NCBI GenBank assembly: GCA_903915625.1
Contig: CAIWTN010000221.1
Location: 1-47,521, forward strand
Direction: 5' to 3'
DNA length: 47,521 nt
DNA from: an uncultured Pseudomonadota bacterium
GTDB lineage: Bacteria; Bdellovibrionota_B; Oligoflexia; Oligoflexales; CAIYRB01
Of the stretch, positions 26,066 to 38,691 are shown piece by piece (position 1 is the stretch's first letter; the number at the start of each line of letters is the position of its first letter). The notes under the pieces were generated by a model that saw only the letters and a program-made list of their open reading frames with translations, had not been told where the DNA came from and did not search any database. A program made the translations under genes and the position numbers.

Positions 26066-27718
26066 TCACAGAGTCTTTAAATATTCCAACAACTCATCAC
26101 GCGCATCCAGATTCACCGAAAAATCAAAACCGCTGAAAAAAATATCTGGATCTTCGTGCCCGCGATTACTGAAACCCGGCCAAGTCGTGTCGAAAGTCAC
26201 ACCAACCGCAGGGTCGATTCCGTAAGCGAAGCCGACCTTAACTTCGTCAAAGTGAGTGCTACCGCGATTAAACTGTGCTGGCCGTTCCTTTGGTATCAGC
26301 ATGTGATAAAGAGTCGGCACGGATCCATTATGCAAGTATGGAGCACGCGCCCAAATGCCCGTGAGAGGCGGACTTAGATAACCAGGACGATCACTGCGAT
26401 CAACCAAGATGTCATCATCCGCAACGTTGCATTCTGGGAGATACTTGTTACTACATGCAGCGCGCAATCCGGCAATGAGGCCGCGTCGCGACTCTTTGCT
26501 AAGTCCCCTTGCTCTATTTCCATCTACACCGAGGATTTCCAAAGAAATGAATGCCCCAGATTCATGACAACGCTTGCAAGCCTTACTGAAGATTAGTGAG
26601 CCACGCTCTGCCTTCTGCAGATCGACATTAAATGGGTAAACAGGTGGCGGCATATTGGCAACAAATTCTGTAGCCATTTGAGCATTCGCAAAATTTACTT
26701 TAGCGGGATCGCCAATGACTCCAAGCTCTGCACCAAGATTGCGCATCAATTTTGCGCGGATATTACCATCCCACTGAGCGAGTTCTTTAGCCCCCTGCCC
26801 CCATACGTTCATGATGTCGACCATCGGTGGCTGTGGCGGGAGCAGCGTCCCAGCAATACGGACTTGCTCCTGTTGGGTTTTTGAAGCGAAATCTGTTGGG
26901 ATCAGTAAAGCCAAAACGGTAAATCCGAAAGCATCCAAAGATCCAGGAATGCGTCCATTTACCAGGTGAGCAGCATCTTTGTAGGTATAGCGGCCCAAAA
27001 TTCGCTGGACCATATCTTCTCGATCGTTGATGGACTTTTTGAGCGCCGCAACGAGAACCTGTGCGTTGACTTCAAAGATTTTTACCTCTTCCGTCTCTCT
27101 CGCCAACTGATCTAAGCCGTATAGCCATCCAGGCTGCTTTTGCTTTAAGGCCACAATTAGATTCTCTGCAGTGAGCCTCGGATCGTTGACGGATCGCCAA
27201 ACTAGGTGACGAAACCCGGCCACATCAATCTGGGTATTTGGGCCTCCAAGAATCGTTTGTTCCCTATCACCCACCTTGATTCGGCCCATGTGGCAGGAAG
27301 CACAGCTAAAGCCTAGAGTAGATAGCGCACCACGATTCTCGTCACCCAGATGAAGTTCAAATGGAAAGGCACCCTCTACCCAGTGCATGCCTGTGTATCG
27401 TTCAGCCGCAACAGGATTCCATAAGTCAGGCAAAATCGTTGGCAACAGCGCCACTATAAGCGCTGGCATACCATCAAAGCCGACCGGTGTATTTTGGAAT
27501 GCTTGAGTCGCCGCCCGCTGATCAACAAAATAATGCTCTCTAGCATGCTGCCTTTGCTCTTGTAACTGTGACCAAGATGTAGCCTCCACTGCTGCATCTC
27601 GCGTCGAAGACGCCGACTTTAGTGGCCGACAAGAGAAATTCACAAAGACAACGACGGCACCGGAGATACCAAAGAGCAGAGTATTTTGGTAACGCCACGT
27701 GCTGCGCCGCTGATTCAT
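26066..27718 (-). CDS. Di-haem c-type cytochrome lipoprotein (CcP/RoxA-like)
   Basis: Encodes 550 aa from the ATG at 27718; a longer version starting at a TTG would overlap the sulfatase stop. The N-terminal signal ends at NFSC (Cys30), a possible lipid anchor. Two haem-c sites are present: CASCH (about 139-143) and CKRCH (about 381-385). The C-terminal block GYLSPPLTGIWARAPYLHNG then SVPTLYHML is typical of the large di-haem family that includes cytochrome c peroxidase-like and RoxA-type rubber oxygenase proteins. It acts in the periplasm or at the outer membrane in electron transfer, peroxide reduction or oxygenation; which one cannot be decided. It is the third gene of the FGE-sulfatase operon, 38 bases after the sulfatase stop. 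Confidence 0.85.
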   Translation of the reverse strand: MNQRRSTWRYQNTLLFGISGAVVVFVNFSCRPLKSASSTRDAAVEATSWSQLQEQRQHAREHYFVDQRAATQAFQNTPVGFDGMPALIVALLPTILPDLWNPVAAERYTGMHWVEGAFPFELHLGDENRGALSTLGFSCASCHMGRIKVGDREQTILGGPNTQIDVAGFRHLVWRSVNDPRLTAENLIVALKQKQPGWLYGLDQLARETEEVKIFEVNAQVLVAALKKSINDREDMVQRILGRYTYKDAAHLVNGRIPGSLDAFGFTVLALLIPTDFASKTQQEQVRIAGTLLPPQPPMVDIMNVWGQGAKELAQWDGNIRAKLMRNLGAELGVIGDPAKVNFANAQMATEFVANMPPPVYPFNVDLQKAERGSLIFSKACKRCHESGAFISLEILGVDGNRARGLSKESRRGLIAGLRAACSNKYLPECNVADDDILVDRSDRPGYLSPPLTGIWARAPYLHNGSVPTLYHMLIPKERPAQFNRGSTHFDEVKVGFAYGIDPAVGVTFDTTWPGFSNRGHEDPDIFFSGFDFSVNLDARDELLEYLKTL

Positions 27719-27756
27719 AAAAGCCCCATCTCGCAAATCTAGATAGGGCTCAATTA

Positions 27757-30039
27757 TCAACCATCCAATTGACTGAAGTCTAGCTCCGGAGGTACAGGGC
27801 CGTCCGTTAGCAAGACTTCTACAGAGTCAATCCGCCCACGGAAGACAAACGGGACAGTGTACGTATCAGTGACGGGTGAACCATAGTCACTGCCAATATC
27901 AAAAGTATCACCCAACCCGAATCGCCTTGGAACCGTATGAGTGATGAATCCCTCAGCGACCGAACGCCCGTTGACCGACAGAATTCCCCGCCCAGCCTGT
28001 AAACCCGTGCGGACAAATTCAAAGTCGACTTTGACTTGGCCCCGCGGCAGCGTAACTGTGGATTCGATGTCGTACTGGGCTAGACCGAGGTAGTTGTAGG
28101 TATAATGCAAACGCCCATCTTTTATGTACAACGAATACCCGCCAAAGCGCCCGCCGCTGGCCACGATCACGCCGTCAATGGCTTGAGCATCAGCGGGAAG
28201 ATTAAGTGCTGCGACTATCCTGTGCGAGCGATTCTTAACTGGCGGTGATGCTGATTCCGCAATACCCACGTCGCCTTGAGTGTAGTCAAATTTGCTCCTA
28301 CCGCCGACGATTGCACGCGTTACGGCATCCATTCGGTCCAATGTACGATCATCAAGTGGGTAGACGTTGTATAGCTTAGCTTGGGCGTCGAATAATGCTT
28401 TCAGCTCTGCGACTTTCTCCGGGTACTGGCTGGCAAGATCATGGATCTCAGACATATCCTCGTCGAGTTTGAAGAGCTCCCACTTATCCTTAGAAAAGTC
28501 GGCATTTGCTGCTCCATGCTCCCACGGGAATCGACCATGAAATGCATCAGCCTTCCATCCATCGTGCCAAATAGATCGATTTCCCAGCATTTCAAAATAC
28601 TGCACCGCCTTAGGTGCCGGACTTAATGCGTCGGTAAGCGCAGGCGCAAAACTAACACCTTCCAAAGGAGCTTGCGTAACTCCGCCCACTGATGACAGTG
28701 CCGTAACTCCAGTCAAATCTAGCAGCGTTGGCATCACATCGACGATATGAGTAAATTGACTGCGCACTCCACCAGCATCTGAAATATGCCCCGGCCACGA
28801 GATAATGAGGGGATCATGCACGCCACCTTCATGCGTAGTCTGCTTCCAATAGCGAAACGGAGTATTGCCAGCTAAAGCCCAACCCGCGGGATAGTGATTG
28901 TACGTGAATTTGGTGCCTAACTGATCAATGCGCGATAAGTTTGCATCAAGGCTGTCCGGTATACCGTTGAAGAGCAAATTCTCGCTAAAACTACCGTGAA
29001 GTCCACCTTCGCCACTGGCACCATTATCGGAGGTCACGATGATAATGGTGTTGTCCAGTTGCCCCTGGCGCTCCAGTTCTGCGAGCACGCGACCAAACTG
29101 GGCATCAGCGTGCTCAAGATAGCCCGCGAATATCTCCTGCATCCGCGAGTATAAACGCTTTTCTTTCGTTGGCAGTTTGTCCCACGCCTGGATTACGCTC
29201 GGACGCTCGGACAACTCTGCCGAGGCTGGTAATAAACCCATCGCCTTTTGCCTGGCCAGGGTCTCAGTACGAACCTGGTCCCAGCCTTGATCAAACTTTC
29301 CCGCGTACTTGGCTGAATACTCAGGCGGAGCATGATGGGGAGCGTGCCCGGCTCCCGTGGCGAAGTATAAGAATAATGGCTGCGCGGAATCCAGTCCCTG
29401 TTGCCCCTGCAGCCACTTAATCGCCTGATCGGCTAGATCAGTTGTGAAGTGGTATTTGGGTGACTCAGCTTGTGGCGCAATGAGCGTGGTGTTATCCCAA
29501 ACCGGCGGCTCCCACTGGCTGACATCTCCAGCCATAAATCCATAAAAACGTTCAAAGCCGACATCTGTCGGCCACTGATCGTGTTTCAGCCTAGGGCCTT
29601 GCAGCTGTTCTATCGGGGTGTTGTGCCATTTACCAAAGGCTGCAGTGTGGTAGCCACTCTGCCGCAAGGTCTCGACCAGCGGAAACTTATTCTTCGGAAA
29701 GAGGTTATTGTATCCAGGCTGCTGCGTGGCCATCTCAGTAATCACGCCGGTTGCCGCCGAATGGTGGTTGTGCCCAGTCAGGAGAGCCGCGCGCGACGGA
29801 GAACAAAGCGCTGTCGTATGAAAGTTGTTAAATCGCAAACCAGCACGCGCAACTCTATCGATATTGGGTGTTTGCACAGGCCCACCAAAGGCGCTTAGGT
29901 GGCCAAAGCCAACATCATCAAGTAAAAGCACCACAATATTCGGACGCGTGCTTGCGACCGGAGGTGGTGCCGCCCAGGCCAAAGTTGGCATCATCGCTGC
30001 TGCTATAGTTGCTGTAGTTCGGGCTATTTTTGTTGTCAT
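27757..30039 (-). CDS. Periplasmic arylsulfatase (formylglycine type)
   Basis: Encodes 760 aa from the ATG at 30039, chosen because GGAG lies 7 bases upstream and a proper Sec signal follows (ending LAWA). The alternative GTG at 30075 overlaps the FGE stop by four bases. The metal site NIVVLLLDDVG and the modification motif CSPSRAALLTG (Cys79) are those of type I sulfatases, in which this Cys is oxidised to formylglycine. The GHNHHSAATG and KWHN segments add active-site residues. A C-terminal beta-rich region of about 200 residues (after about 550) extends beyond the core. It hydrolyses sulfate esters outside the cytoplasm. The neighbouring gene encodes the enzyme that would activate it. Confidence 0.94.
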   Translation of the reverse strand: MTTKIARTTATIAAAMMPTLAWAAPPPVASTRPNIVVLLLDDVGFGHLSAFGGPVQTPNIDRVARAGLRFNNFHTTALCSPSRAALLTGHNHHSAATGVITEMATQQPGYNNLFPKNKFPLVETLRQSGYHTAAFGKWHNTPIEQLQGPRLKHDQWPTDVGFERFYGFMAGDVSQWEPPVWDNTTLIAPQAESPKYHFTTDLADQAIKWLQGQQGLDSAQPLFLYFATGAGHAPHHAPPEYSAKYAGKFDQGWDQVRTETLARQKAMGLLPASAELSERPSVIQAWDKLPTKEKRLYSRMQEIFAGYLEHADAQFGRVLAELERQGQLDNTIIIVTSDNGASGEGGLHGSFSENLLFNGIPDSLDANLSRIDQLGTKFTYNHYPAGWALAGNTPFRYWKQTTHEGGVHDPLIISWPGHISDAGGVRSQFTHIVDVMPTLLDLTGVTALSSVGGVTQAPLEGVSFAPALTDALSPAPKAVQYFEMLGNRSIWHDGWKADAFHGRFPWEHGAANADFSKDKWELFKLDEDMSEIHDLASQYPEKVAELKALFDAQAKLYNVYPLDDRTLDRMDAVTRAIVGGRSKFDYTQGDVGIAESASPPVKNRSHRIVAALNLPADAQAIDGVIVASGGRFGGYSLYIKDGRLHYTYNYLGLAQYDIESTVTLPRGQVKVDFEFVRTGLQAGRGILSVNGRSVAEGFITHTVPRRFGLGDTFDIGSDYGSPVTDTYTVPFVFRGRIDSVEVLLTDGPVPPELDFSQLDG

Positions 30040-30071
30040 CGACATGCTCCATGTGAGTTGGATTCTGTTGA

Positions 30072-31043
30072 TCACTGACTATCTTTTGCGCACCGAAAAC
30101 CAGTATTTGAACCACCGCTATCAATGGCGCCCTTGCCGCGAGAACCGACGAGATAACGCGTGCAATATTGATCGCTACACAAGAACGACCCTCCACGCTG
30201 CACGCGCTTTGCAACACCCGGATCTCGAGGATCGAAGCTACTCTTAGGACCGCTCGGATTGTGAACCAAGCCGGCCTCCGACAGTTGCTGATAATAATCA
30301 GGGCGATACCAATCCGCAGTCCACTGCCAAACGTTGCCACTCATGTCATAAAGACCATAGCCATTGACAGGGAACGCATGCACCGGAGATGTGCCGGCAT
30401 AATGATCATCGCGCGAATTATAATCTGGAAAACGGCCCTGCCAAACGTTGGCAACCCAATGACCACCCGGCTTAAGTTGATTACCCCAGGCATATTTTTT
30501 AGCTTTTAAACCACCGCGCGCAGCATACTCAAATTCCGCCTCTGTAGGCAGACGCATGCCAGCCCAGTTACAATAGGCTACCGCATCTGCATAAGCGATG
30601 TGGACCACAGGATGCTGCGACCTTGTGTCTACGCTCGACTTCGGTCCTTCGGGGTGCTTCCAGGAAGCTCCTTCGACATACCGCCACCATCCCAGAGCAT
30701 CATCGAGTGATACTTTAGATTTTGGTGGCGTAAATACGGCTGATCCCGCAACCAACAAGTCGGGGGGCACCGAGGGCAAATCCACGGCGCTTGGCTTAAT
30801 CTCAGCTACGGTTCGATAGCGCGTTTGCGCTACAAACTCAGCGTATTCGGCATTGGTCACTGGCGCCTCTGACAACCAAAAGGCCGACACGGCCACGGAA
30901 TGCAGAGGCAAGGCATCAGAGAAAGTGCATCCTGTGCAACCCATCTCAAAGCGACCACCAGGCAAAAGCACCATCTTTGGTGCTGCAAGACCTGGGTCTG
31001 CCGCTATCAACATCCATACCAACTTAACAGATAGGAGCCACAT
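30072..31043 (-). CDS. Formylglycine-generating enzyme (SUMF1/FGE family), apparently exported
   Basis: Encodes 323 aa. The ATG at 31043 has GGGAGG 8 bases upstream. The FGE-sulfatase domain fills the protein: VLLPGGRFEMG at the start, APVTNAEY, MRLPTEAEFEYAARGG, the GYGLYDMSGNVWQWT segment and the RGGSFLCSDQYCTRY active site with Cys289 and Cys294, the copper-binding redox pair. It converts the sulfatase Cys to formylglycine using oxygen. Unusually for a bacterium it begins with a hydrophobic signal-like stretch (WLLSVKLVWMLIAADPGLAA), which points to action in the periplasm. It overlaps or nearly touches the sulfatase gene and so is its dedicated partner. A further Cys pair (C36, C39) lies near the N terminus. 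Confidence 0.92.
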   Translation of the reverse strand: MWLLSVKLVWMLIAADPGLAAPKMVLLPGGRFEMGCTGCTFSDALPLHSVAVSAFWLSEAPVTNAEYAEFVAQTRYRTVAEIKPSAVDLPSVPPDLLVAGSAVFTPPKSKVSLDDALGWWRYVEGASWKHPEGPKSSVDTRSQHPVVHIAYADAVAYCNWAGMRLPTEAEFEYAARGGLKAKKYAWGNQLKPGGHWVANVWQGRFPDYNSRDDHYAGTSPVHAFPVNGYGLYDMSGNVWQWTADWYRPDYYQQLSEAGLVHNPSGPKSSFDPRDPGVAKRVQRGGSFLCSDQYCTRYLVGSRGKGAIDSGGSNTGFRCAKDSQ

Positions 31044-31216: not shown

Positions 31217-32248
31217 ATGCTCAAAAAGGCATTGTGCCTCATGCCCCTTTTGACGCTTAACTGCCAGTCCATACGCTCGCATGTCACTGCCAATGATCGG
31301 ACGTTTGACTTCTGCACTGCGTCCGGGGCGTATCCAAATGCCTACGACCCTTACGTTTGGAGTGGCGCTATGGTGCAAACTGCGCTAACCGACCTAATTA
31401 ACTATCCGACGCTGCAAAATGCACCGGAAGCAGCTTATGCGATAAGCTATAGAAGAATGACGCAAGCCCGCGACGAAGCTCGCTGTCACGGTGAACTTGT
31501 TGATAAAGATCCAGCTATGAACTTGCTGACGCACCAGTTGGCCGACATCATGACTCGTTGGTACATAGCAGAAACTAGACTTTGCCTTGCCGGCAAAGCC
31601 GACGTTAACAACGGATTTTGCGGTGTATTCACCAGGTCACGAAAAGACAATTACGATGCTATTTCCTTCGCTATGGCTGACACCGCAGTATACTTGAGCT
31701 CTCACATCGCCTGGTCGTTATCTGCGCTCGCATACAACGACAACTTCTGGAGTGAGTTCCCTGATCCTGCGACGAGACATGACCAAGGACCATTCAAAGA
31801 TTCACTGGCAGCCCGCAAACGTTGGTTGCTAGATTTTAAACCTACCTATGACCGATTCAATAGCTTTTTAGGCGCTAATTTATCCGTAGTGGCTACTGCC
31901 CTGGCCGAAGCAGGAATGCTGCGGGATCAGTCCTTGGTAGTGGCGAGCAGTTTATCCAAACTAATACCATGTAAATCATCCATGTTTAGCAGCATAAGAG
32001 ACAAGTCATTTAAGGTAGCAATGGAGATACTGGAAGAAGGCAAGCCAGAGCTTCACCCGATGATCCGCGCTGATCATGCACGCTACGTACTAAACTACAC
32101 AAAATTTGAAGCTCGTGGCGACGGACCTACGGCGATTAAGACTATCGAGGATTTTTCTTTGAATGCCTTGGCAAATCCTGTGGCGCGAGCAACCTACAGA
32201 GACATTCTAGGCGGAAAAACTTCAAACCAGCTAAAATGTGAGATCTGA
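31217..32248 (+). CDS. Exported Cys-containing protein, function unknown
   Basis: Encodes 343 aa; AGAGG lies 9 bases before the ATG. The N terminus is a short signal sequence followed by Cys16 in an LTLNC context, which is a poor lipobox, so secretion or lipid anchoring are both possible. The mature protein is largely helical with a scatter of Cys (about residues 33, 94, 123, 135, 252, 341). No recognised domain. It is transcribed away from the FGE/sulfatase/cytochrome operon across a 173-bp gap (31044-31216) with AT-rich stretches that should contain promoters in both directions. Confidence 0.65.
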   Translation: MLKKALCLMPLLTLNCQSIRSHVTANDRTFDFCTASGAYPNAYDPYVWSGAMVQTALTDLINYPTLQNAPEAAYAISYRRMTQARDEARCHGELVDKDPAMNLLTHQLADIMTRWYIAETRLCLAGKADVNNGFCGVFTRSRKDNYDAISFAMADTAVYLSSHIAWSLSALAYNDNFWSEFPDPATRHDQGPFKDSLAARKRWLLDFKPTYDRFNSFLGANLSVVATALAEAGMLRDQSLVVASSLSKLIPCKSSMFSSIRDKSFKVAMEILEEGKPELHPMIRADHARYVLNYTKFEARGDGPTAIKTIEDFSLNALANPVARATYRDILGGKTSNQLKCEI

Positions 32249-32261
32249 AGATCCCACACGG

Positions 32262-33857
32262 CTATAGTTTTTCCCAGCGCTGCAATTCGGCCTGAAAACC
32301 ACCCATATCGACCAACTGCGCAAATGCTAGCTTGAGACCAAGCGCACTCAGTCCACTGCGCGTTTCTGCTGGAAGTGGCGACAACCACACCAGACGACCG
32401 CCCGGCGCAAGGTGCTCAGCCAGCTTGGGGATCAGAGCCTCGAAGAGTTTATGCAGTGATCCGCGATGAACGCGGCGACCCATGGGAGGATTGGTTATGG
32501 TCAGTGTTGGACGAGGACCATTCCAGGTCAGAGAGTCAGCCTCTTCCAATGTGGTCACTTCGCTGCAGCCTGCTGCCGCGGTATTACTGGCTGCCGCGCT
32601 GAGAGCGCGAGGGTCTAAATCGGTGCCATAAAGAGCAGCAACCGGACCCAGTTTATACCGTTCGATGAGCTCACTGCCGGACCCAACAAAAGGATCCCAA
32701 ACGCAGTCATCAGCACGAACTCCGGCGACTCGCGCCAGCGCAGCAGCGATTGTCGGATGCGAGGCTGCCGGGACATCCTTGAGTCGATAAGTGAAACGAG
32801 GATCGACCCAATTCTTCGGAATGAGTTCCAGATAACTCAGCGGACCGACCCGACGCATGCCAACTTCCCAAACGCTTGCCGTCGGATCATTCACGAGTTG
32901 TGGACACTTAGTAGTGAGTTGCTGTGCTAGCTTCCACAGTTCGGCTTTGCTAGCTGAAGGCAAATCAAGACGGTAACGCACGGGGCCGATCGTCAACGAC
33001 TGGAGCAAGGTTAGCGCTACTTGCGACGTTAGGGCCGCGATAAGATCAGAGTGCTTTCCGCCTCGCATGATCACCGGTAAGCTGATGCATAGCGCCAAGC
33101 GGAGTCGCCAAAAATCGGTCAAAGGTCCGTCGTGCTCAACGGTCACTAAACCAGGTTCCGTTATCGCCACAGCGTTAAAGCCGGCCGCGCGCGCCTCATC
33201 AGCAAGCAGACCTTCAAGACCAGCCCGACAACTTAGCCACACCGTCTGAGTCTTTGCTAAGGGACGCTCGGCAGCTACTTCCCCACCTTCACGGCGACTC
33301 AGTTCTCGGGTAATGATCAACTGAGCGCGGCGGTGTACATCTTCATTCTTCGCAACTTCACGCGCTGCTAATGCTGCTTGCGCTTTCTTTCCGCCCACCT
33401 TGCCAAGTGAGCGTGTTGCCGCTCGCACCACCTCAGAACGACTTTCTTGTGTCAAAGTACTCAGCAGAGCCTGCTCACTGTCATCACCGGGCAAACGCCC
33501 AAGCGCAGTAATCGCATTTAGCTGAGTTTTCAAATCGGCATCGGTGACTAAAGTCAAAAGCAGGTCTTTAAGCATCGCACTACTTGTTTGCTCAGCTAGT
33601 TTTCCAGCTAGGCTAGTGAGTAGACCACGTACTGGTCGCACGCTGTCAGGAATCACCCGCATGAGTGGGGCTATAGACGCGGCACCAGCACGCAGCAAAG
33701 CACGCATGATGTGCTTGGCATCAGCCTCGCCAGCAGTGGCCAGAAGCTGCAGCAACAGTGGAATATCTTTCGCCCCCGGCGTAAACCCGGACGATGCAGC
33801 ACGAGCGACCAATTCTAACGAATGCGACACGTCTTGGGTGTCCAGGCCTGACGTCAT
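32262..33857 (-). CDS. HEAT-repeat / THUMP-like / RNA methyltransferase fusion
   Basis: Encodes 531 aa from the ATG at 33857, which overlaps the radical SAM stop by four bases (ATGA). A longer in-frame extension would overlap that gene by about 100 bases and is rejected. Residues about 30-190 are helical HEAT-like repeats. About 205-350 resembles the THUMP/ferredoxin-like region of tRNA-modifying enzymes (opening with WLSCRAGLEGLLADEA). The Rossmann methyltransferase domain has the SAM site DPFVGSGSELIE (about 388-399), an acidic GTDLDP and the catalytic NPPMGRR (about 456-462), as in TrmN/Trm14/RlmL-type guanine-N2 enzymes. RNA guanine methylation is therefore likely; the exact target is unknown. 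HEAT repeats on such an enzyme are unusual and may bind protein or RNA. Confidence 0.82.
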   Translation of the reverse strand: MTSGLDTQDVSHSLELVARAASSGFTPGAKDIPLLLQLLATAGEADAKHIMRALLRAGAASIAPLMRVIPDSVRPVRGLLTSLAGKLAEQTSSAMLKDLLLTLVTDADLKTQLNAITALGRLPGDDSEQALLSTLTQESRSEVVRAATRSLGKVGGKKAQAALAAREVAKNEDVHRRAQLIITRELSRREGGEVAAERPLAKTQTVWLSCRAGLEGLLADEARAAGFNAVAITEPGLVTVEHDGPLTDFWRLRLALCISLPVIMRGGKHSDLIAALTSQVALTLLQSLTIGPVRYRLDLPSASKAELWKLAQQLTTKCPQLVNDPTASVWEVGMRRVGPLSYLELIPKNWVDPRFTYRLKDVPAASHPTIAAALARVAGVRADDCVWDPFVGSGSELIERYKLGPVAALYGTDLDPRALSAAASNTAAAGCSEVTTLEEADSLTWNGPRPTLTITNPPMGRRVHRGSLHKLFEALIPKLAEHLAPGGRLVWLSPLPAETRSGLSALGLKLAFAQLVDMGGFQAELQRWEKL

Positions 33858-35812
33858 GGCGCCACTTGCCGAGATCCTGCCTTGGCCTCCAAAGCTCGGC
33901 GAATTAGATTCTTCGGTACGCTCGTTTTGGGCACTGGGAAGTCGAACCAAAATCTTACATCCTCATCCAGCGCAATGCCGTGCATGTAGTTATAAACTGC
34001 TTTTCTCAAGCCAACGCCAAGAGCATCGTGATCGACACCGGTAGGATCGACAAAATCCAAGTCATTATGTGCAAAAGTCACAGTTGGCATCGGCAAGAGT
34101 TCGATACCGAAACGTGCTGGGTCTTTACCAATGGGGCTATGGGCCGTAACCGAGAACCTGTGCCAGAAAGCAGAAGTCAAACATCCGGCTAAAAATAACT
34201 GCCGCACGCGCTCAAGTGCGTCCACCGTCTCAGCCACGGTCTGTGACGGGAATCCGTACATTAAATAAGCGTGAACCAGTATGCCGGCACTTTCTAAGGC
34301 ATGCGTCACTCGGGCAACCTGCTCAACCGTGACGCCTTTATTCATAAGCTTAAGCAGGCGATCAGACGCCACTTCAAGGCCGCCACTAACGGCGACACAG
34401 CCAGCTGCTCGCATTTTGGCCGCAACCTGCGGCTGCGAGAAGGTCTTCTCAAAGCGCACATTGCCCCACCAAGTCGATGATATTTGACGGGCGATCAGGC
34501 GTTCAGAGAGGGCTAACAAAGTTTTGGGCGGAGCCGCCTCATCAACGAAATGAAAGCCGCTTTGACCGGTTTCTTCGATGATTGTCACCATACGATCAGC
34601 GATCAGATCGGCAGCCTGCTCTTCATAAACTCCGATATAGCTCAAACTAGTGTCGCAGAAATTACATGCTTTCCAGTAACAACCGTGGGCGAGCGTCAAC
34701 TTGTTCCAGCGGCCATCGGACCAAATCCGATGCATAGGATTTAGCATTTCCAGCAGAGACAAATATTTTTCAATCGGCAATCCGTCATAGGTCGGTGTGC
34801 CGGCATCCTTCATCGGAATATCATGCTCAGTCGGTGCCGACTTAAATACCACGCGCCCATCTTCGCGGACATAAGTACGCAGAAATCCATCTAGACCACG
34901 CTCACCGCGCAGATGCTCGAGGATGCATTGTATTGGCCTTTCGCCGTCATCCAACGTGATGAAATCAACGTAATCGAAGATGCGAGGTTCACTGAGCGAA
35001 CGCAGCTCCGTGTTCACATAACCGCCGCCCATGAGAATCTTCGTCTCAGGACTAATGCGGCGCACCGTTTGTGCTATCCGCAAGGCTCCATAGACGTTGC
35101 CAGGAAATGGCACCGTAAGACCGATCACAGTTGGCTGATGCTTGGCAACGAGATCCTCAGTGATCGCCATCAACATGTTGTCGATGAGCGTGGGCTGTGC
35201 AGCAAGAGCTGCAGCCAATGGTTCAAAACTGGGTGCGCTAGCAGCTAATTTTTCGCCGTATCGCGACAAAGTGAAATGTTCGTCTATGCCGTCATGAATC
35301 ACATCAGCAAGATCGTCTAAGTATAGCGTCGCTATGTGCTTAGCCCGGTCCTGTACGCCGAGTGCGCCAAAGGCCCAAGCTAGTGGATCGTCTGTGCCAT
35401 GGGCCGAATACTGCTGCATCGCCAGGATGCTGCGTGGACCGCTGGGTAAAAAATCACCGCCAGCGATGCGCATCGCTAAAGTCGGATCACGTCCTTGCAG
35501 AAACCGCACGACCGGCTCGACAGTCCGTTCAAACTCGGCCTCATGGTCGAGAAAGAACTGAACAGACGCTGGTATAGGCATCTTGCGCTTACCACGTTGC
35601 GTCTTCGCTCCAGCGCCTTCAAACTTCAGTTTCAACTCCGCAGCTATCTGCTGCAATCCCGCCCGGCAAAATAAACGCAGCACCAGTTCTAAGGCTGGAT
35701 CGGCCTGACGTGCGTCATAACCCCGTGACCGCAACAGCCCGGTTAGGTAGGCAGTGGCAGGGTACGGGGTATTCAGCTGAGTCATTGGTGGAGTGAGGCA
35801 TAAGACGCGCAT
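33854..35812 (-). CDS. B12-binding-domain radical SAM protein
   Basis: Encodes 652 aa from the ATG at 35812 (MRVLCLTPP, a usual opening); a GTG 27 codons upstream is also open and neither has a strong ribosome site. A Rossmann-like B12-binding region spans about residues 218-303 (VIGLTVPFPGNVYGALRIA and ILMGGGYVN), without the DxHxxG motif. The radical SAM domain carries CYWKACNFC (about 378-386), a CX4CX2C variant seen in this subfamily, then FHFVDEA and the GxEVASDRLL strand region. Such enzymes methylate or rearrange unreactive carbons using SAM, an iron-sulfur cluster and cobalamin. An insertion of about 120 residues (50-170) precedes the B12 domain. The gene overlaps the HEAT methyltransferase gene, so the products probably act on the same pathway. 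Confidence 0.86.
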   Translation of the reverse strand: MRVLCLTPPMTQLNTPYPATAYLTGLLRSRGYDARQADPALELVLRLFCRAGLQQIAAELKLKFEGAGAKTQRGKRKMPIPASVQFFLDHEAEFERTVEPVVRFLQGRDPTLAMRIAGGDFLPSGPRSILAMQQYSAHGTDDPLAWAFGALGVQDRAKHIATLYLDDLADVIHDGIDEHFTLSRYGEKLAASAPSFEPLAAALAAQPTLIDNMLMAITEDLVAKHQPTVIGLTVPFPGNVYGALRIAQTVRRISPETKILMGGGYVNTELRSLSEPRIFDYVDFITLDDGERPIQCILEHLRGERGLDGFLRTYVREDGRVVFKSAPTEHDIPMKDAGTPTYDGLPIEKYLSLLEMLNPMHRIWSDGRWNKLTLAHGCYWKACNFCDTSLSYIGVYEEQAADLIADRMVTIIEETGQSGFHFVDEAAPPKTLLALSERLIARQISSTWWGNVRFEKTFSQPQVAAKMRAAGCVAVSGGLEVASDRLLKLMNKGVTVEQVARVTHALESAGILVHAYLMYGFPSQTVAETVDALERVRQLFLAGCLTSAFWHRFSVTAHSPIGKDPARFGIELLPMPTVTFAHNDLDFVDPTGVDHDALGVGLRKAVYNYMHGIALDEDVRFWFDFPVPKTSVPKNLIRRALEAKAGSRQVAP

Positions 35813-36005
35813 GCCGCACGGATTACCATAGTCAACCAGACGAAGTCCACGCCCGCGTGAGGGTCTTAACTTACTGAATTCGCGCGCGATCACTAAAGCG
35901 TTCGCTGTTTAACTAAATAACCTTGAGCTTCCGGGTACTTAAGTTAAGTGGTTGGAAACCGATAGCCTATGGACGGATGGGGCCTATCCAAAAGGAGGAC
36001 TTTGC

Positions 36006-37754
36006 ATGAAATCAGTCCAACTCCAGGATCAGCAAGCGACCGACAAATCGCCTAAGCTGCTTGGGTTAGCGGCAGTACCTGCCGCGGTACTCGCTTTTAC
36101 CAGTTTGGCTATTGTCAGCGACTTAGCCACAGTCGATCTGTTAGGGCTCACTCGAACCGGGGAATTCTCAAGCGTTATCAGGGATTTAACGGATCTTCCG
36201 GTAAATTTTACGGTGATTCCGGCCGATACACTGAGGGCCACCACAGCCCGGGTGGCTGAGACTCTCAATGGAATGATTCTAGTTCCCAGACTGGTAGCTC
36301 AGCTCTTGGTTGGGCTAAATCTGGCAATTATTGCCATCTACGGTGCAACAAGTTTACAGCGTCGCCTGGCACAGTTTCGCCGTAAGCGGGCGGACGATAG
36401 TCTGAATGTATCGACAGATACTGCCGCTGAGACGAGAGCTTCGCTTCAACCTAGCGATAGTCAGTCGGCTGCGGCGCCAAAAATAGCAGCCGAAACAGAA
36501 TTGGCACCAGTACAAAATTCGACTGCCGCTGTTGTCGCTGTATCGGAAGTGGCAGGGGCTCTCTTTGAAGCAAACAAAAGGCTAAACACCCTGAGGCAAC
36601 AGGGGCAAGAGTATGCAAGTCAGGCTGCTGCTGCACGCGGTGAATGGAATGCAATTGGCATGCAGATGTGGCATATCCGCCAACTGCAAGAACGAAGCAT
36701 CGACACCGGCCACACCATGGGTAAGTCCATTGGTGCATTGCTCCAGAACTTCAAGGACGCACTGAGTCTGGAAGTATCTCTTGCTCATCGCATTGGAATG
36801 GTAAGTACCTACCTCGGAGAGATAGATAACTACGCCGGCGTCGCAGATCAGCTCACAAACGAAACTAGCGGTGAATTTGCTACATTTAGGACCGACTTAG
36901 GTAGCGCGCTGGCGCTGGTTACCGCACTCACCAGCCGCACCCAAGAAATACTCAGCGTCGTCGCGTCTATGGAAGACGTTGCCGAACAGATAAACCTAGT
37001 CGCGCTTAATTCCTCGATCCAATCGGCGCGCGCTGGCGATCAAGGCCAAGGTGAAAGCTTCGCAGCCTTCGCGACCGAGGTCAGCCGACTCTCCATGAGT
37101 TCCAGCTCTTCCATCCGCAGCATCAGCTCGCTGCTAATCGCCATTAAAAATGAGGGCGAACAGGCTTCAGCGCGCCTCCTTAGTAGCGTCCAAAGGCTGA
37201 GCAAAGCCAGCGACACCATCACCAGATTACGCCATCATCAATCGGCCAAACTTATCGCCACAAACCGGGTCAATGACGATGTAGAATCCATATCAAATGA
37301 TCTGGGTTTGTTAGTGGATGTACTGAACGCGGCACGAAAACAAAGCGGAGTCATCAGCAGCAACAGCGAGGCTCTGAACAAAACACAACAGTACTGTGCT
37401 GAAACTTGCACTAGACTTAGCAGCGAAGTTCGCCACGCAGCTGCAAGTTCCGATCGTGTGGCTAGGTTGTTGTCTAGTCAATCTTATTCTATCAACCACT
37501 GCGAAAACCTTATCGACGGGGCCGCCGTAGTGACTCGCGAGATATCACATTTTGATAGCAAAAACTCGGGCCGTTGGAACTCCAGCAGGTCCACCGTGCG
37601 CACTGCCAGCCTCAGGACTTTTTCCGGCCAGAACACGAAGTCACAAGCCAAGGTCGACTGGCAACCGCAACTAGCTCTGCACATCGTCAAAGGGGACCAA
37701 TCCACTCCGACCATGATTCTTGCTGACCAAACTCCAGTCAGCAGTGAGGCATAG
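36006..37754 (+). CDS. Methyl-accepting chemotaxis-like membrane protein
   Basis: Encodes 582 aa. The ATG at 36006 follows a strong AAAGGAGG; an in-frame ATG upstream is rejected. Two membrane segments lie at about residues 18-40 and 90-110, with only about 50 residues outside. The cytosolic part is long coiled coil. Its hairpin tip, VAEQINLVALNSSIQSARAGDQGQG, is clearly related to the chemoreceptor consensus (given here only in outline). Compared with that consensus there is a two-residue insertion (E350-S351) just after the GQG and several changed tip residues. It may therefore couple to a non-standard CheA/CheW or have lost that role. A flagellin-like gene starts one base after the stop, so both are made from one message. 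Confidence 0.82.
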   Translation: MKSVQLQDQQATDKSPKLLGLAAVPAAVLAFTSLAIVSDLATVDLLGLTRTGEFSSVIRDLTDLPVNFTVIPADTLRATTARVAETLNGMILVPRLVAQLLVGLNLAIIAIYGATSLQRRLAQFRRKRADDSLNVSTDTAAETRASLQPSDSQSAAAPKIAAETELAPVQNSTAAVVAVSEVAGALFEANKRLNTLRQQGQEYASQAAAARGEWNAIGMQMWHIRQLQERSIDTGHTMGKSIGALLQNFKDALSLEVSLAHRIGMVSTYLGEIDNYAGVADQLTNETSGEFATFRTDLGSALALVTALTSRTQEILSVVASMEDVAEQINLVALNSSIQSARAGDQGQGESFAAFATEVSRLSMSSSSSIRSISSLLIAIKNEGEQASARLLSSVQRLSKASDTITRLRHHQSAKLIATNRVNDDVESISNDLGLLVDVLNAARKQSGVISSNSEALNKTQQYCAETCTRLSSEVRHAAASSDRVARLLSSQSYSINHCENLIDGAAVVTREISHFDSKNSGRWNSSRSTVRTASLRTFSGQNTKSQAKVDWQPQLALHIVKGDQSTPTMILADQTPVSSEA

Positions 37755-37755
37755 A

Positions 37756-38691
37756 TTGGCATTTAATATTAAAGATAAGTCACTAGAACTTAGACTAGAG
37801 CGCCACGTAAGTAGAGCTCAGCGCGACGTCTCGGATTCATTCGAGCGTTTAAGTTCTGGTACCATCTTTACGTCCAATCACCCAAAGCCCTCGGAAAGAG
37901 CGCTTGCTGAAGGACTTGAATTCAAACTCAGGGGACTATCGGCAGCAAAACGAAACGTCAATATAGCAATAAACTTTGTACAAACTGGAGAATCTAGCCT
38001 TTCTGAGGTCAGCAACATCATTCAGAGACTCAAAGAGATCAATGTTTCTGCAGCCAGCACAACGCTGAGTAATCGCGACCGCGCTTTTCTTTTTGTCGAA
38101 TATCAAGCATTACACGACGAAATTAACCGCGTTGCCGAAACCACCGAGTTCAATGGCATCCCTCTACTGAATGGGAATTCACCTAAGGTGCCTGAGTCCT
38201 TGGTCCTGCGCGTCGGTGATCCAGCCCGCGCTGGGAATAGCGATGGTGCCGGCGAAGATTTAAATATCATTGAGTTTAAAGATCTGAAGCAGGTAGTGGC
38301 CACAACCGAAGGCCTCGGACTGAAGTCAGCGGCTGACTTACTTGCTAACATGACTGATAACGGAATAAGCCTCGAAGACGCGAGGACTATGCTGGAAGCT
38401 ACCGATTCAGATAAATTTGGCTCAGCCTATGATGAGGCTCTGGATACGCTTGCGTCACACAGAGCCTTGTTCGGCTCAATACAGACGCGATTAAATCGAG
38501 CCGTGGATTTCATCGATATATACCAGGAAAACATTGCCGCCGCGAAATCATCAATCGCTGATGTTGATTATGCGGTTGAAGCTGCAGCTCTAGCTGAGTC
38601 AAGAATTCGCTTGCAAGCGGGTACTGCCATGCTAGCGCAAAGCAATATAAGCTCGACTCACGCACTGCAGCTGCTCAATAATCTGAGTTAA
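37756..38691 (+). CDS. Divergent flagellin-like protein
   Basis: Encodes 311 aa. The start is TTG at 37756, because GAGG lies 6 bases upstream and translation from there gives MAFNIK, the normal flagellin opening; a longer frame runs into the previous gene. The N-terminal D0/D1 helices (RDVSDSFERLSSGT, then SNIIQRLKEINVSAAS and INRVAETTEFNGIPLL) and the C-terminal helix (SSIADVDYAVEAAALAESRI, QAGTAMLAQSN) follow the flagellin plan. The usual N-terminal NSAxDDAAG loop is replaced by a charged, Pro-containing segment. The variable middle is short (about residues 140-225). It is one base from the chemoreceptor-like gene. It may be a minor filament subunit, a hook-associated protein, or a sensory variant. 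Confidence 0.85.
   Translation: MAFNIKDKSLELRLERHVSRAQRDVSDSFERLSSGTIFTSNHPKPSERALAEGLEFKLRGLSAAKRNVNIAINFVQTGESSLSEVSNIIQRLKEINVSAASTTLSNRDRAFLFVEYQALHDEINRVAETTEFNGIPLLNGNSPKVPESLVLRVGDPARAGNSDGAGEDLNIIEFKDLKQVVATTEGLGLKSAADLLANMTDNGISLEDARTMLEATDSDKFGSAYDEALDTLASHRALFGSIQTRLNRAVDFIDIYQENIAAAKSSIADVDYAVEAAALAESRIRLQAGTAMLAQSNISSTHALQLLNNLS

Follow-up and report, generated by a model that had tools for sequence, protein, structure and literature searches.

We propose, with a probability of about 0.7, that two coupled genes on the minus strand of the window (the whole 47,521-nucleotide stretch of DNA that was analysed) encode two independent enzymes which share an operon in this clade: a methyltransferase of the tRNA m2G type, and a B12-dependent radical SAM methyltransferase. 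The genome assembly that holds the window is of 4.4 Mb, in 252 contigs, and is 96% complete. The features of the two genes are:

32262..33857, minus strand: HEAT-fused TrmN-like methyltransferase gene, 531 aa, open frame (Pfam, profile match)
33273..33857, minus strand: its HEAT-repeat region, residues 1-195 (HEAT_2; in 37/39 homologues; helical in model)
32823..33260, minus strand: its putative ferredoxin-like plus THUMP region, residues 200-345 (co-linear profile match to TrmN 3TMA; RlmL_1st below cut-off)
32265..32822, minus strand: its Rossmann methyltransferase domain, residues 346-531 (UPF0020)
32478..32492, minus strand: its NPPMG motif, residues 456-460 (sequence; homologue alignment)
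33854..35812, minus strand: cobalamin-type radical SAM gene, 652 aa, ATG start, open frame (Pfam, predicted model, fold search)
35198..35671, minus strand: predicted helical insert inside its B12 domain, about residues 48-205 (secondary structure of model)
34973..35158, minus strand: second half of its split B12-binding domain, residues 219-280 (sub-threshold Pfam match; model)
34655..34681, minus strand: its CX4CX2C cluster motif, residues 378-386 (invariant in 37 homologues)
33854..33857, minus strand: 4-base ATGA stop-start overlap of the two genes (read from sequence)

Both open frames and the four-base overlap had been reported in a first-pass annotation, and they hold at these positions. 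Elsewhere in the genus the junction is a GTGA overlap (G005), an ATGA overlap (G004) or a gap of 2 nt (G003); since it is tight in all three of these other genomes with both genes, the coupling of the radical SAM and methyltransferase genes is real. No Rfam match to a cobalamin riboswitch was found within the window, and none was detected in the window's own genome.

The methyltransferase matches HEAT_2 and UPF0020 above the Pfam cut-offs and RlmL_1st below its cut-off. A profile of 39 homologues aligns residues 200-528 in one stretch with residues 22-353 of Thermus TrmN (3TMA, E=6e-27), and a separate match, to HEAT proteins, spans about residues 50-175; together, this co-linear alignment and the separate HEAT match support a predicted domain order of HEAT, ferredoxin-like, THUMP and Rossmann, in which the THUMP assignment rests on the TrmN alignment, Pfam THUMP not being among the reported matches. 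The tRNA m2G6 methyltransferases TrmN (Thermus thermophilus, PDB 3TMA) and archaeal Trm14 have the same ferredoxin-like, THUMP and Rossmann order and an NPP-type motif, and the window protein conforms to that architecture in its single co-linear match to 3TMA, but it carries in addition about 195 aa of HEAT region at the N-terminus. Its NPPMGRR motif is well kept: the 39 homologues all have N456, P458, G460 and R462, and nearly all have P457. HEAT_2 is found in 37 of these 39 members, so the fusion characterises the family and did not arise through misassembly. The unusual HEAT front end on an NPPMGRR methyltransferase, first noticed from the sequence alone, is therefore confirmed, with no known equivalog, and we consider the HEAT-fused methyltransferase a genuine TrmN-type variant. 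Family members were found in the window's phylum and in Myxococcota; a plasmid search gave no match, and the structure model of the methyltransferase half, built from three sequences, was poor (mean pLDDT 50).

The Trm14_Arch model was matched by 39/39 members at E <= 0.01, the window protein scoring 34.3 bits against an equivalog cut-off of 280. Our literature search found no description of a HEAT-fused methyltransferase family, and according to a review of THUMP proteins, in which the word HEAT does not occur, TrmN, which forms m2G6, is the sole THUMP-related tRNA methyltransferase reported from bacteria (PMC9957541).

In a related family, f8, the methyltransferase (about 25-30% identical) has another coupled partner, a U32/DUF3656 gene of the RlhA type (about 885 aa), whose end it overlaps by 4 bases in four genomes and by 13 in G013 with its called GTG start. 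The U32-coupled loci are L089, L090, L091, L112 and L113 (genomes G035, G013, G024, G041 and G042); within the genus of the window, U32 was detected in G002 only. U32 proteins include RlhA (ho5C2501 of 23S rRNA) and TrhP (ho5U34 of tRNA) (PMC6599085). This shows that the coupled partner of the methyltransferase varies between lineages, and the f8 arrangement supports an RNA role for the methyltransferase.

Which RNA it acts on bears on the most probable of the alternatives, that the target is 23S rRNA, in the manner of RlmL, and not tRNA. RlmL (the 23S rRNA m2G2445 methyltransferase) is of the same domain class, its type of model also matches (weakly for RlmL_1st, and at 39.3 bits against a cut-off of 466 for RlmK/RlmL), and RlhA, representing the partner type in f8, acts on 23S rRNA (PMC6599085). 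However, a canonical RlmL-type gene is present elsewhere in the genome (G000:C19, 394 aa), and TrmN was the only full-length co-linear structural match seen, so that we regard an rRNA target as unlikely. The separate gene also rules out that the window methyltransferase is the genome's RlmL orthologue; a further UPF0020 protein is encoded in the genome as well.

The 652-aa partner matches Radical_SAM above the Pfam cut-off and B12-binding below it, and carries the cluster cysteines C378, C383 and C386, which are invariant across 37 homologues. The usual cluster motif of radical SAM enzymes is CX3CX2C, and CX4CX2C is atypical. A structure model from 37 sequences was good overall (pLDDT 84, pTM 0.86) with a poorly modelled cluster loop (residues 380-396), and in it a helical insert of about 160 aa is predicted to split the Rossmann B12 domain. 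The first nine matches in a PDB fold search with this model were the cobalamin-dependent radical SAM enzymes TokK, TsrM and OxsB (best matches at E 1e-10 to 1e-8), followed by AprD4. The Radical SAM domain and cluster cysteines are thus accompanied by an N-terminal cobalamin-binding Rossmann domain, as indicated by the sub-cut-off Pfam match, the fold match and the co-absence of the gene with B12-domain proteins in two sister genomes (G001 and G002; see below), and both the motif and the B12-type radical SAM identity proposed in the first-pass annotation are upheld. Identity to TokK, TsrM and OxsB is only 14-18%, and the window protein differs from them in its CX4CX2C motif, the long helical insert in the B12 domain and its broad conservation. 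The top NCBIfam models, TIGR03975 (RiPP maturation radical SAM C-methyltransferase; 95.5 bits against a cut-off of 281.85) and PhpK (P-methyltransferase; 89.5 bits against 600), are both far under cut-off, which places the protein outside the TIGR03975 family, and no RiPP gene context was noticed around the gene.

Among the best 80 of 298 relatives, members of the radical SAM family from beta- and deltaproteobacterial genomes are full-length with identities of about 60%, and two Bacteroidota have homologues 46-49% identical; our literature search found nothing specific on this family and no substrate. No constant neighbour gene was found at the loci of these best 80 of 298 relatives. A DUF455-like (ferritin-like) gene, named by reading its sequence, lies upstream in 10/80 loci (L014, L015, L019, L020, L023, L024, L028, L029, L035 and L048); it directly precedes the radical SAM gene in Polynucleobacter and in two further bins of betaproteobacteria, several pairs overlapping. 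Other neighbours are a carbonic-anhydrase-like gene in Acidovorax and relatives, and YihA in Parabacteroides.

These observations bear on a second alternative: that the enzymes are independent but serve the same RNA class, the radical SAM family being cobalamin-dependent C-methyltransferases of RNA (tRNA or rRNA), so that operon sharing would be meaningful and the coupling to the HEAT-THUMP methyltransferase a clue to the substrate class. The coupling of the methyltransferase to an RlhA-type U32 gene in f8 is in keeping with this, as is the broad conservation of the radical SAM family, which resembles that of a core function. Yet no RNA-binding domain was seen in the radical SAM protein, the sequence models closest to it are of enzymes for peptides and small molecules, and its neighbours elsewhere are unrelated. 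To our knowledge, none of the radical SAM enzymes shown to act on RNA has a classical cobalamin domain. We hold this reading, and with it an RNA substrate for the radical SAM family, to be improbable.

The distribution of the two genes across relatives is what separates them. They are adjacent in 4/6 genus genomes (G000, G003, G004 and G005). At the syntenic locus, G001 and G002 carry the methyltransferase but no radical SAM gene; the reverse holds in G006 (same family, 77% complete), whose locus has the radical SAM gene and lacks the methyltransferase. The MCP-like, flagellin and APP1-like flanking genes are syntenic in all seven (the six genus members and G006), so these sites are directly comparable, and the simplest history is that the radical SAM gene was lost in the G001/G002 lineage. 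At the level of the order, G021, G022, G027 and G033 have only the radical SAM gene and the f8 genomes only the methyltransferase. At the radical SAM loci of the best 80 of 298 relatives, the methyltransferase was near only in the two nearest relatives, some of the other 78 contigs stopping close to the gene, and 3/20 distant radical SAM carriers have it at full strength, each on other contigs.

Myxococcota give the same picture. In 284 genomes the methyltransferase (E < 1e-15, long matches) was counted in 30, the radical SAM gene in 41 and both in 5, against 4.3 expected (Fisher p=0.78), and never on the same contig. Five of the 12 genomes with the closest radical SAM copies do carry the methyltransferase (p=0.004, phylogeny ignored), an overlap which shared ancestry may explain. 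No constant partner of the Myxococcota methyltransferase was seen by eye in 1.5-kb flanks.

Each gene is thus mostly found without the other, both in the window's phylum and in Myxococcota, and the co-occurrence and linkage across relatives that would mark a dedicated two-gene unit are not kept; an obligate pair is ruled out by this independent distribution. A dedicated two-step unit for RNA modification, with both enzymes acting in turn at the same RNA site, has in its favour the tight junction conserved in four genomes and the RNA-modifying class of the methyltransferase, but either gene is common alone, even at the syntenic locus of sister species, and we consider it very improbable. The annotation's suggestion of an undescribed two-step unit hence falls on the outcome it had itself named as refuting, separation of the genes in most relatives. 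The other such outcome, a methyltransferase matching a known complete RlmL/TrmN orthologue group, was not what we found, there being a separate RlmL gene and the examined members lying far below the equivalog cut-offs.

Comparison of B12 proteins within the genus points the same way. G001 and G002, which lack the radical SAM gene, are also without any B12-binding protein that passes the Pfam cut-off, and members with the gene keep B12 proteins of 736-754 aa, 1254-1270 aa and ~1102-1108 aa (the third being a shorter frame in G000); the first two are expected to be methylmalonyl-CoA mutase and MetH, names taken from length and domain only. This joint absence shows that the radical SAM enzyme is tied to cobalamin and that the methyltransferase needs neither, on what is probably one event, G001 and G002 being mutually close and draft assemblies able to hide genes. 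The gene cannot be predicted from B12 use alone, for the f8 genomes have B12 proteins and no radical SAM gene.

Several other genes of the window were observed in passing. On the plus strand, at 35952-38691, a short flagellin gene comes immediately after an MCP-signalling-domain gene, and their synteny is kept in the genus; of the two, the MCP-like gene diverges much faster (37% identity in G004, against 79% for the flagellin). At 31217-32248, plus strand, lies a gene whose 343-aa product begins like a lipoprotein and matches nothing in Pfam; it adjoins the methyltransferase in G004 too (59% identity). A three-gene run on the minus strand, 26066-31043, has four-base overlaps at each junction:

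30072-31043, minus strand: formylglycine-generating-enzyme-like gene
27757-30075, minus strand: sulfatase gene
26066-27760, minus strand: RoxA-like cytochrome gene

Under our preferred reading of two independent enzymes in one operon, the methyltransferase would hold a tRNA by its acceptor end with the ferredoxin-like and THUMP domains, and the NPPMG-bearing Rossmann domain would transfer a methyl group from SAM to a guanine N2, the likeliest site being near position 6 of the acceptor stem; the family-specific HEAT solenoid at the N-terminus probably docks RNA or protein. The radical SAM enzyme would hold a [4Fe-4S] cluster through CX4CX2C and cobalamin on its split N-terminal Rossmann domain, and probably methylates an unactivated carbon (or phosphorus) in a widely conserved substrate. 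The ATGA overlap would then reflect co-expression and not an obligate two-step reaction; nevertheless a functional link between both genes inside the clade is possible, because the tight junction is kept in 4/4 genomes with both genes.

Our analysis separates two uncharacterised, testable enzymes: a HEAT-fused, TrmN-like methyltransferase family, which is more notable than the gene pairing itself, and a highly conserved B12 radical SAM family, for whose product the sister species without B12-binding proteins offer a natural knockout.
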